From NCBI GenBank assembly GCA_003134375.1, contig PLAY01000060.1:6773-54297 (forward strand): DNA of 47,525 bases, written 5' to 3'. This document shows, one piece after another, positions 26,384 through 30,195 of the stretch. The DNA comes from Limisphaerales bacterium (GTDB taxonomy: Bacteria; Verrucomicrobiota; Verrucomicrobiia; Limisphaerales; UBA11358). The position numbers were made by a program, and so were the translations under genes. Position 1 is the first letter of the stretch. Every line of letters begins with the position of its first letter. The notes beneath the pieces are model-generated. The model did no database searches. It was not told the DNA's origin and worked only from the letters and a program-made list of their open reading frames with translations.

Positions 26384-26497
26384 ATGGGCAAACAATCCAA
26401 CAAAGTTGAAAATCGAAGCCGCCGGAAACGCTACCTCAAACGCAAAAAGGTGGCGGCGAAAACGAAAAAAGCCGCAAAGTCCAAAACTGCGACTTGA
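26384..26497 (+). CDS. Very small basic protein
   Basis: 37 residues from ATG 26384, 15 of them Lys or Arg: MGKQSNKVENRSRRKRYLKR then an alternating KKVAAKTKKAAK tail. Likely nucleic-acid or ribosome associated by charge. I believe similar tiny proteins recur in the phylum, but I cannot confirm. It diverges from the SecD-like lipoprotein gene and is closed by a clear terminator, which supports a real transcript. Confidence 0.7.
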   Translation: MGKQSNKVENRSRRKRYLKRKKVAAKTKKAAKSKTAT

Positions 26498-26574: not shown

Positions 26575-26775
26575 TCAAAAACAAACTTCTTCACCGCGCG
26601 GAATTTCCGGCGAAAATCCGGTGAATAATTCTTCGTTCAAATCAAGCGAACAGTTCGATTCCATTGGCTGATTCGAGTTGTTCGCAGGTTGTTCACGGGC
26701 CGTTTTCGGTGAACAAACTGTGCATATCAATTCGTTGTCGGTTTGGGAATTTGAGTTATTATGTTCACAGTTCAT
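26575..26775 (-). CDS. Doubtful 66-codon frame
   Basis: An ATG-to-stop frame on the minus strand, Asn- and Ser-rich, with two Cys (ICTVC) and a start beside the predicted promoter of the structured RNA on the other strand. Composition is AT-richer than the surroundings. Several GTTC/GAAC half-sites run through it. No recognisable domain; it may be regulatory DNA rather than a gene. Confidence 0.2.
   Translation of the reverse strand: MNCEHNNSNSQTDNELICTVCSPKTAREQPANNSNQPMESNCSLDLNEELFTGFSPEIPRGEEVCF
26684..26712. promoter_or_regulatory. Inverted GTTCAC/GTGAAC site upstream of the structured RNA
   Basis: TTGTTCAC and GTGAACAA face each other across about 12 bases. A second palindrome CGAACAGTTCG lies at 26645-26656, and further GTTCA half-sites continue to the promoter. 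This looks like a cluster of operator half-sites; the factor is unknown. Confidence 0.45.
26735..26762 (+). promoter_or_regulatory. Sigma-70-like promoter for the structured RNA
   Basis: TTGTCG at 26735-26740 and TATTAT at 26757-26762 are separated by 16 bases. Transcription would start near 26769, just before the first stem of the structured region. Confidence 0.5.
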
Positions 26776-27645
26776 TGAAAGAACGAAACGGACGGTAAAG
26801 ATCGAAAGGTTGAGTTGTCCGTTTCAGGATAATCCCAGGTGACTGGGGAAAAGTTGGGTCAGGCTGGTTGGCCCGGCTCCTCTGAAGTTGGATCGCAAGG
26901 TTTGATGAGGAGGCAGAATTCACCAGTTCCTCTGGCGGTGTTCGCACACCGTCAAATGCGAATGAGGGACTTGGCGGCGAGGGGCGATGAGAAGCCGCTC
27001 CAAGCCGGGTCAAGTAGTTCAGGCTGGTTTCGAGCCTGGGCGAATCGCAGTTACCCAGAGGGTATCCGGTTGCTACTGCGCATCAGCACGGACGGGCGAC
27101 TCTGGCGGTCACGCAAAAAAACGGGATCCGCCAAAAGAAAGACGCCGAAAGGCGGGACAAAATGAGCGTTCGCACCGGGAAGGACACGACGGCTCGGCAG
27201 GCTGCGTGAAAACCTTCCAAGCGCCGGCGATGTTAAAAACGACACCGCTGGGCTGTGAGCGAAAACAACCTGAGAGTGAAGAGGCGAGACCCGTGGCTTC
27301 GGGCGAACGCACCGTCAAAAGCGGTGGCTGACCCGGGGCTAGTGGTGGAGACGCGAAGAGCAAATCACAGACGTGTCTTCATCTGGTTTGCAAGCTGGTG
27401 GCGCAACCATCAGTAAAGCAGGCTGAAAAGCCTCACTCGAAATCCAGTGTCCGCAAGGCGCTGGACGGCCCTGCCACGAGGCCGAAGACTCCGCTTGCCG
27501 TGGAGAATGGCGTCGGGAAGCTGACAGCCTCCGAAAGGGGCGCGCCTAATGTCGGCATGGGAAAGAGAGCTTGGCGCACTCCCATCCCCCATTTGTCCCT
27601 GCTCGACCGCAAGGCCGGGCAGGGACTTATTGTTTTTGGAGGAGA
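26770..27645 (+). ncRNA. Candidate large structured non-coding RNA (about 0.87 kb)
   Basis: No convincing protein frame spans this stretch, but perfect hairpins follow each other: 26785-26793 with 26817-26825 (nine pairs); 26834-26847 (CCCAG, GTGA loop, CTGGG); 26877-26882 with 26907-26912; 26936-26951 (CGGTGT/ACACCG); 26970-26978 with 26994-27004; 27020-27038 (CAGGCT/AGCCTG, seven-base T-loop-like loop); 27046-27051 with 27075-27080 enclosing 27052-27064; 27103-27108 with 27128-27133; 27143-27154 (GAAA loop); 27395-27413; 27420-27433 (AGGCT, GAAA, AGCCT); 27444-27464; 27474-27478 with 27499-27503; 27529-27540 (GAAA loop). GNRA loops read correctly only on this strand. A promoter-like site precedes it and a strong terminator ends it. 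It is not tmRNA, RNase P RNA or 6S RNA by any motif I know. Comparable in size to GOLLD-class RNAs; class unknown. Confidence 0.7.
27595..27637 (+). terminator. Terminator of the structured RNA
   Basis: GTCCCTGC at 27595-27602 pairs perfectly with GCAGGGAC at 27619-27626; the inner arm is capped by a GCAA loop; TTATTGTTTTT follows. Confidence 0.9.
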
Positions 27646-27649
27646 GAAA

Positions 27650-27758
27650 ACATCGAACATTGAACATTGAACGCCCAACATCGAATCGAAAACAAGTCGT
27701 TGAATCGCATCTCCATTGGATGTTCGGAGTTCGATGTTGGATGTTTTCCAATGGTTGA
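27650..27758. repeat. GAACATTGAACATCGAAC inverted repeat, copy 1
   Basis: Units of CATCGAACATTGAACATTG on the left face GTTCGATGTTGGATGTT on the right. A second copy lies at 35282-35372. It separates the structured RNA terminator from cysK. Confidence 0.75.
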
Positions 27759-29052: not shown

Positions 29053-30195
29053 ATGAGTGGTTCAGAAAACAACGACGATAAAACGTCCAATTACGGTGCG
29101 GGCTTTCTGGAGATTTCCGAGAAGGGCTTCGGCTTTCTCCGCACGGTAGCCAACCATTTTCATCCCAAACCGACCGACATTTTTGTCACGCCGGACACCA
29201 TCCGACGCAGTTTCCTGCGCGAAGGCAGCTACGTCGCCGGGCCGACGCAGCCGCCGCATCGCGGCACGAGTCCGCAGCTCAAGGCCGTTGACAAGGTCAA
29301 TGAAATGCCGTTTGAGGATTACACCAAGGCCGTCCGCTTTGAAAACCTCACCACGATTGATCCGATCGAAAAGTTCAACCTCGAAACCACTCCCGACCTG
29401 CTCGAAACGCGCATCATTGACCTCGTCACGCCGATTGGCAAGGGCACGCGCGGGTTGATTGTCTCCCCGCCGCGCAGCGGCAAGACCACCATTCTCAAGC
29501 AAATCTGCAACGCCATCACCACGAACCATCCCGAGGTCTATGTCATGGTGCTGCTCATTGACGAACGTCCGGAGGAAGTCACGGATTTCCAACGTTCGGT
29601 CAAAGCCGAGGTGGTTGCGTCGTCGAACGACATGGATTTGGAAACGCACGTCCGCCTTTCGCGTTTCATGGTTGAGCGTTGCCGGCGCATCGTCGAATCC
29701 GGCAAGGACGCTTTTATATTGATGGATTCGCTCACGCGCATCGCCCGCGCCTACAACAGCGTTCATGGCGGCAGCGGCCGCACGATGACCGGCGGGGTGG
29801 ACGCGCGCGCGCTGGAAATCCCGCGCAAGATGTTCGCCTCGGCGCGCAAAATTGAGGAAGGCGGTTCACTGACGATTCTGGCCACCGCGCTCGTGGACAC
29901 CGGGTCGCGCATGGACGAATTGATTTTCCAGGAGTTCAAAGGCACGGGCAACATGGAATTGATTCTCGACCGCAAACTGTCCGACCGGCGGTTGTTCCCG
30001 GCCATTGACATTCCCAAGAGCGGCACGCGCAAGGAGGAAAAACTTTTCCCGGCCAAATATCTTGAAGCCATCCGCAAATTGCGCCGCACGATGGTGGATT
30101 TGAACCCCATCGAAGCGATGGAAACGCTCACCGCCGCGCTCAAGAAACATAAGACTAACGAGGAGTTGCTCGCCAAGCTGGAAAAGGGCTGTTGA
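29053..30195 (+). CDS. rho: Transcription termination factor Rho
   Basis: 380 residues, shorter than the 419 of E. coli because the N-terminal helical Rho_N subdomain is reduced to about 14 residues; the cold-shock-like RNA-binding fold begins at GAGFLEISEKGFGFLRT. The helicase part is complete: Walker A in LIVSPPRSGKTTILKQ (about residue 135), Walker B in DAFILMDSLTRIARAYN, Q-loop GGSGRTMTGGVDARALEIP, R-loop GSRMDELIFQEFKGTGNME. It works as a hexamer on nascent RNA. The 232-base leader lacks a gene and carries a hairpin-like stretch near 28955-28985, where autoregulation of rho is possible but not shown. Confidence 0.95.
   Translation: MSGSENNDDKTSNYGAGFLEISEKGFGFLRTVANHFHPKPTDIFVTPDTIRRSFLREGSYVAGPTQPPHRGTSPQLKAVDKVNEMPFEDYTKAVRFENLTTIDPIEKFNLETTPDLLETRIIDLVTPIGKGTRGLIVSPPRSGKTTILKQICNAITTNHPEVYVMVLLIDERPEEVTDFQRSVKAEVVASSNDMDLETHVRLSRFMVERCRRIVESGKDAFILMDSLTRIARAYNSVHGGSGRTMTGGVDARALEIPRKMFASARKIEEGGSLTILATALVDTGSRMDELIFQEFKGTGNMELILDRKLSDRRLFPAIDIPKSGTRKEEKLFPAKYLEAIRKLRRTMVDLNPIEAMETLTAALKKHKTNEELLAKLEKGC

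Follow-up and report, generated by a model that had tools for sequence, protein, structure and literature searches.

A verrucomicrobial MISL RNA preceded by paired DnaA-type boxes like those upstream of dnaA, suggesting a possible tie to the cell cycle

A large structured RNA encoded in the window (the whole stretch of DNA analysed, 47,525 nt in length) almost certainly belongs to the MISL family. Judging from its sequence, it is a stand-alone, non-coding RNA of approximately 865 nt, encoded by a single-copy locus of a verrucomicrobial chromosome. The class had already been named; the present analysis corrects its ends, adds pairings to its fold and reveals a promoter link that was not expected, in that the RNA is preceded by paired DnaA-type boxes like those before dnaA, which suggests that it may be tied to the cell cycle. 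MISL is most likely a trans-acting RNA transcribed under putative DnaA control, and the evidence of a tie to replication concerns the promoter and not the RNA itself. For MISL, an orphan RNA of large size, a regulator in common with dnaA would provide a direct and testable lead to a role, and it is this DnaA link that most merits a test.

Family assignment and extent of the transcript

Comparison of the window against Rfam by cmscan aligned the RNA with RF03079 (MISL) over the full length of the model (positions 1-751 of 751; Bitscore: 604.7; gathering cut-off: 274.6; e-value: 2.5e-183). This was the sole match between positions 26600 and 27800, where the models of GOLLD, ROOL, OLE, HEARO and the group II intron gave zero matches at E ≤ 1, and a single copy of MISL is found within the window's own genome. 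The earlier note had assigned the RNA to an unknown class, which is wrong in view of a full-model match far over the threshold, and had proposed an Rfam search as a check; the known family found in this way removes the class claim and leaves the structured-RNA feature itself standing. The same note had described a self-contained large structured RNA, and rightly so; the hairpins that it listed are borne out. A survey of 224 RNAs is the likely original source of MISL. In the literature searched, the term 'MISL RNA' was encountered in the Ribonanza preprint only, where, in the portion available, it serves as a chemical-mapping example, and a search on MISL (with GOLLD/ROOL, Rfam and Verrucomicrobia) returned no stated function.

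The transcript is predicted to start at approximately position 26768 and to end in the terminator tail (Table 1). Since the 5′ hairpin, a second stem-loop and the terminator are all conserved outside the Rfam model, the conserved unit would span approximately 26768-27635, to which the bounds given in the earlier note were closer than those of the model. The 5′ hairpin, GUUC[AC]UUGA[AU]AGAAC, is located 56-61 nt 5′ of the core in most loci, with its four positions paired in 132/133, 135/135, 131/135 and 133/135 homologues, respectively, and gives no covariation because it hardly varies. The second stem showed 29 double changes in the window's register and 48 at a +1 slide, which was read as misalignment, and each sequence was therefore folded singly. 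Its closing stem (26785-26793/26817-26825), already picked out as the first stem from the sequence alone, was recovered in every one of the 124 sequences that were folded out of the 135, with a mean z of -3.2. The proposed terminator likewise proved sound, its helix covarying with 115 double-change events against 5-14 when slid; a simple scan of the window did not list a terminator at this position. Furthermore, a CCCA..CCCC..UUUG sequence 3′ of the core is mostly kept among the homologues.

A coding gene is disfavoured, given that all three frames of the homologues contain stops. These average 6.2-7.8 per homologue, against 9.2-10.3 in shuffled letters; the median length of the longest open stretch is 127 codons.

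Table 1. Positions of the MISL RNA, its predicted pairings and its flanking elements within the window
Feature	Position	Strand	Basis or remark
Small Lys/Arg-rich protein, 37 aa, MGKQ.NK..KR.RR	26384-26497	+	Conserved ORF
Inverted DnaA-box-like 9-mers TGCGAACAA and CGTGAACAA (26678-26686 and 26689-26697)	26678-26697	-	2 mismatches each to TGTGNATAA
Tandem DnaA-box-like 9-mers GGTGAACAA, 2 nt, TGTGCATAT (26708-26716 and 26719-26727)	26708-26727	+	3 mismatches of 16; 62 nt 5′ of the 5′ hairpin
Sigma-70-type promoter, -35 TTGTCG (26735-26740), -10 TATTAT (26757-26762)	26735-26762	+	9/12 consensus matches
Whole MISL transcript, predicted	26768-27635	+	Promoter, 5′ hairpin and terminator positions
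5′ hairpin GUUC-AUUGAAA-GAAC, near-invariant, outside the Rfam model	26770-26784	+	Paired in nearly all homologues
5′ hairpin loop UGAA (26776-26779) with UUCA (26919-26922)	26776-26922	+	4 double changes; held-out 68/68
Second stem-loop, outside the Rfam model, adjoining its first base	26785-26825	+	Per-sequence folding
Rfam RF03079 MISL core	26827-27582	+	cmscan, model positions 1-751
Pseudoknot 26942-26946 with 26957-26961	26942-26961	+	Covariation; held-out 81/90
Pseudoknot (~200 nt) 27068-27073 with 27265-27270	27068-27270	+	22 double changes vs 0-1 slid; held-out 77/84
Rfam stem extension 27224-27229 with 27246-27251	27224-27251	+	15 double changes vs 0-2 slid; held-out 86/96
Pseudoknot 27253-27257 with 27366-27370	27253-27370	+	25 double changes vs 0-3 slid; held-out 51/57
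Pseudoknot 27472-27476 with 27508-27512	27472-27512	+	11 double changes vs 0-1 slid; held-out 53/55
Pseudoknot 27543-27546 with 27573-27576	27543-27576	+	135/135 paired at four positions; held-out 32/32
Intrinsic terminator (not part of the Rfam model), with a GCAA-looped helix at 27595-27626 followed by a U-rich tail	27595-27635	+	Covariation

Core structure and further pairings

The homologues were aligned as 135 unique sequences out of 157 full-length loci, with a median identity of 65% to the window's RNA. The covariance check proposed in the earlier note came out in favour of the fold: the 171 Rfam pairs, paired in 86.8% of cells, account for 936 tree-mapped double changes, against 146 and 124 with the partners slid by two columns. 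Under a tree-preserving null, which is severe, 16 pairs score higher than in any of the 30 null alignments. Every one of them is a standard pair, 14 belonging to the Rfam structure and two to the terminator; at lower scores the standard pairs form a minority (129 of the 598 above 50). The plus-strand sense of the fold is borne out by the balance of G-U over C-A cells, both in the Rfam pairs (1993 versus 666) and in the new pairs (474 versus 100), and the T-loop-like hairpin (27020-27038) and nested long-range stem (27046-27080) discerned earlier are Rfam helices. Eight or more GNRA loops had been counted; among the seven checked, four are conserved, with GNRA in 133/134, 126/135, 100/126 and 55/74 of the homologues with letters there, and three are not (36/101, 65/132 and 19/88). 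The GATC-GNRA-GGTT hairpin does not hold up as a repeated module, the GNRA loop of its first copy not being conserved.

Compensatory changes among the 135 homologues predict seven further pairings, six pseudoknot-like and one a stem extension, which are for the most part upheld by held-out homologues (19 at most). The candidates were picked from the same alignment later used for the double-change counts and, taken pair by pair, none of the new pseudoknots exceeds the tree-preserving null (30 null alignments); they are based on helix-level double changes, slid controls and held-out loci. The held-out set comprised 65 other loci, reduced to 22 after near-copy removal, with letters present in 4-19 of the 22 depending on the helix; two of the 22 (L065 and L071) were also part of the 26-locus profile used for locus finding. 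In this set, partners slid by 2 were paired in 21-47% of cells.

The 5′ hairpin loop takes part in one of these pairings (26775-26779/26919-26923), with four double changes against 0-1 slid, all of them at 26779/26919; the other three kept pairs are near-invariant and the outer pair 26775/26923, paired in 0/135, was dropped. All of the cells from 17 held-out loci are paired and, because A-U, U-A and C-G all occur at one position, the near-invariant loop is likely to dock onto AAUUCAC. Outer pairs were also dropped from the helices 26941-26946/26957-26962 (14 double changes against 0-5 slid; 26941/26962 paired in 83/134) and 27541-27546/27573-27578 (six against 0-1; 27541/27578 and 27542/27577 paired in 14/121 and 22/135, respectively). 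The last pair of the ~200-nt pseudoknot is a C-A in the window, and among TTGATAG-type loci the stem extension is less well kept, with 244 of 324 cells paired. Together, the corrected ends and the new pairings provide a better construct for structure work.

Taxonomic range and genomic neighbourhood

Under strict filters, MISL was found in 39 of 59 relatives and in 25 of the 35 of good quality; that it was not found in the remaining 10/35 suggests that some lineages do without it. It was likewise found in 41/188 genomes of the class and 19/194 of the phylum, these samples overlapping with each other and with the relatives, and in 0/14 control genomes. Other phyla were covered by an exact DNA pattern (the 5′ hairpin and first core bases) across all genome contigs, which retrieved at least 118 loci. 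Among the matches listed, 117 of the at least 118 match the extended profile and one labelled Clostridia does not, and the 80 titles comprise 77 verrucomicrobial records, two named 'bacterium' and the one Clostridia record. The L-numbered loci and G-numbered genomes referred to here partly overlap. Two records titled Akkermansia muciniphila (L144 and L139) carry MISL, the title of L144 being probably wrong, and genome G204 harbors two full-length diverged copies (L050 and L067; 502 and 405 bits).

Distances between the MISL RNAs correlate with those between the DnaA proteins of the same genomes (Mantel rho: 0.88; 36 genomes; 0/2000 permutations), also with the f45 genomes removed (rho: 0.78; 27 genomes; 0/2000 permutations), suggesting that MISL is mostly inherited vertically. 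A phage or plasmid element is disfavoured, as blastn, with a reach of ~65-70% identity, gave no match in 50,697 phage records or 72,556 plasmids and the exact 5′ pattern is absent from viral contigs. ROOL and GOLLD are found in phages and prophages, and in this regard MISL is unlike them; nor does it match the Rfam models of OLE, ROOL or GOLLD. By analogy with these three RNAs, which are described as forming homo-oligomers in the available part of PMC12286853, the size, GNRA loops and many pseudoknots of MISL could be taken to indicate an RNA-only homo-oligomer (dimer or cage) with a structural role, which we regard as doubtful.

In four complete genomes, MISL is located 0.63-0.97 of the way from the origin to the terminus as placed by GC-skew, the placement being coarse (20 stretches of 20 kb per genome) and the profile of G167 noisy. 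An oriC at MISL is as such disfavoured, with MISL far from the GC-skew switch in these genomes. By the same coarse measure, dnaA sits at 0.31-0.94 of the origin-terminus distance in G144, G081, G136 and G167, and oriC therefore seems not to be beside dnaA there.

Clustering of gene families of at least 80 aa around MISL (up to ~8 kb per side) found none that recurs beyond 10 of the 41 neighbourhoods. The position upstream of cysK given in the earlier note is incidental, cysK being within 300 nt downstream in 8/41 loci. In the window the RNA is encoded on the plus strand and cysK starts 243 nt after the core, an arrangement compatible with a cis-regulatory leader or attenuator of cysK. Such a role is nonetheless highly improbable, given the conserved terminator before cysK and the rarity of cysK, or of any one gene family, beside MISL. 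Between this terminator and cysK lies a 33-nt imperfect inverted repeat (27646-27748; 79%), the arm motif of which occurs in 7/422 loci from three genomes and which is perhaps a small dispersed repeat. Following cysK is a Rho factor gene (29053-30195, plus strand; best NCBIfam: PRK09376), whose cluster is found near MISL in 7/41 loci.

A conserved Lys/Arg-rich protein of 29-46 aa precedes MISL in 16/41 loci, but in 0/10 f45 regions, and matches nothing in Pfam or NCBIfam at E values of up to 1. It was rejected as an RNA partner; with one match per genome in 137/188 class genomes, against 41/188 for MISL, it is a lineage-wide gene and merely a neighbour.

DnaA-type boxes and a possible role

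The -35/-10 pair noted earlier at 26735/26757 is present, and related loci share a TTG.C / TA...T consensus at the corresponding positions. Furthermore, a TANNNT -10 is found in 56/66 loci with TTGAAAGAAC, against 8/63 others. A recognisable start was available for 131 of the 135 loci, 125 of these with 220 nt upstream, and alignment of the latter showed strong conservation only from approximately -62 on, as GGTGAA.AA..TGTG.A followed by TTG.C. The first block consists of two 9-mers in head-to-tail order with a spacing of 2 nt, both resembling TGTGNATAA, which is how the DnaA box reads on this strand. At a cut-off of four mismatches in 16, such a tandem pair is found at -70 to -35 in 95/125 loci (56/68 of the TTGAAAG-type, 34/52 of the TTGATAG-type and 5/5 others), against 4/125 in one control stretch, 3-5/125 in other control stretches and 0.4% of shuffles. 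The copies are imperfect, most with 1-4 mismatches of 16, and 30/125 loci and 3/35 of the compared genomes miss the cut-off at MISL. A second, inverted pair is found upstream in 62/125 loci, against 0/125 in the control window, and is present in 38/52 TTGATAG-type and 21/68 TTGAAAG-type loci.

DnaA titration and reactivation sites, such as datA and DARS, are known, and the box array could be a site of this kind beside an RNA with an unrelated job. The additional inverted pair, more boxes than an activator needs, and the location of MISL far from the inferred oriC in the four complete genomes would fit such a site. In a slightly wider scan, the tandem pair was found in 98/128 loci and, in all but one of these (97), is positioned at -64 to -61 relative to the start of the RNA, as for a promoter element, and the element at dnaA has the forward pair only, making a titration or reactivation site rather unlikely.

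Across 40 genomes, the strict tandem pattern occurs at 43 sites in 25 genomes, and at 0 sites when read backwards. Twenty of the 43 sites are located at MISL (18 genomes; that of G002 assigned by its 5′ hairpin alone) and ten at dnaA, comprising nine upstream of the gene (eight of them assigned by protein cluster) and one placed by its flank alone, the gene being cut off. The other 13 are at neither, and the nine of these inspected have no gene family common to three or more. Two such sites, L282 and L287, have similar flanks (GTTCACC...CGTCAC) and perhaps mark another shared target. In the direct comparison, the tandem precedes dnaA in 35/35 MISL genomes (reverse strand: 1/35; shuffles: 4%), and 32 of these also have one before MISL, the stretch searched being 350 nt at dnaA and 35 nt at MISL. 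Of the 40 genomes searched, 36 were compared, with G049 and G147 (no dnaA match), G144 (contig starting at dnaA) and G171 (MISL start not recognised) left out, and 35 were counted, as the MISL start of G054 did not fit the search pattern. The window's own genome (L343) has the tandem TGTGAATAACTAGTGAACAA upstream of a dnaA whose product contains PF00308, PF11638 and the box-binding domain PF08299, and Pfam confirms DnaA in the four tested loci with a tandem upstream of dnaA.

It is thus fairly probable, from the resemblance of the two upstream regions, that the MISL and dnaA promoters share a DnaA-type regulator. A regulator other than DnaA could instead bind both promoters, and the imperfect boxes are compatible with this, as is the drift of the second box to purine-rich forms at both places in the f45 genomes (presumably Opitutaceae). 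There the sequences differ between the two places, for example TGTCGGAAA at dnaA and TGGGAGGAA at MISL in G118 and G167. The first-box variant GTTAATAA is found at both places in G152 and at MISL only in G211 and G221, and the box variants are therefore not reliably co-varying. The 9-mers, their 2-nt spacing and their place before dnaA, by contrast, fit DnaA boxes (TTATCCACA, as given in the part of PMC8203912 available), leaving a different regulator an unlikely candidate. According to the same part of that review, promoters can be either activated or repressed by DnaA, and dnaA is among its repressed targets; neither 'noncoding RNA' nor 'small RNA' has a match in the main text, as available, of the review, and a limited look at the literature on the DnaA-box regulon with noncoding RNA and on DnaA boxes or the origin in Verrucomicrobia found no such RNA.

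On balance we lean, by a little, towards an overall reading in which a DnaA-controlled MISL functions in trans as a knotted RNA in replication or cell-cycle control. Transcription would begin at a promoter that belongs to MISL and stop at the MISL terminator, and the product would adopt the knotted fold indicated by sequence comparison. DnaA would bind the tandem boxes just 5′ of the -35 and activate MISL; with 7 nt between its end and the -35, the tandem is placed where an activator could be seated, and DnaA would from there raise transcription. MISL would then follow the DnaA/replication state. The many long-range contacts point to a compact, trans-acting particle, and the folded RNA would probably work either in complex with protein or as an assembly of RNA only, and may act in replication or cell-cycle control. 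Taken by itself, a role for the RNA in replication or the cell cycle is a tentative proposal. Held slightly more loosely still is the notion of a DnaA-regulon RNA in Verrucomicrobiota, switched on by the box array and feeding back on initiation or linking replication to growth.

Compared with the Rfam description of MISL, the core structure is the same, with a full-length covariance-model match, but the conserved unit is longer, by 57 nt at the 5′ and ~50 nt at the 3′ end, and has further pairings, which are new relative to the structure line printed by cmscan. MISL falls into the same size class as OLE, ROOL and GOLLD and is likewise stand-alone, with many hairpins and long-range contacts, yet it lacks a match to their models and to phages. 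With the dnaA promoter of the same genomes, MISL has in common the tandem 9-mers, their 2-nt spacing and their location upstream of the promoter. It differs from DnaA-regulated genes in that its product is a large RNA and in the frequent presence of an extra inverted pair and, if the notion of a DnaA-regulon RNA is true, a large non-coding RNA would be built into a bacterial replication-control circuit.
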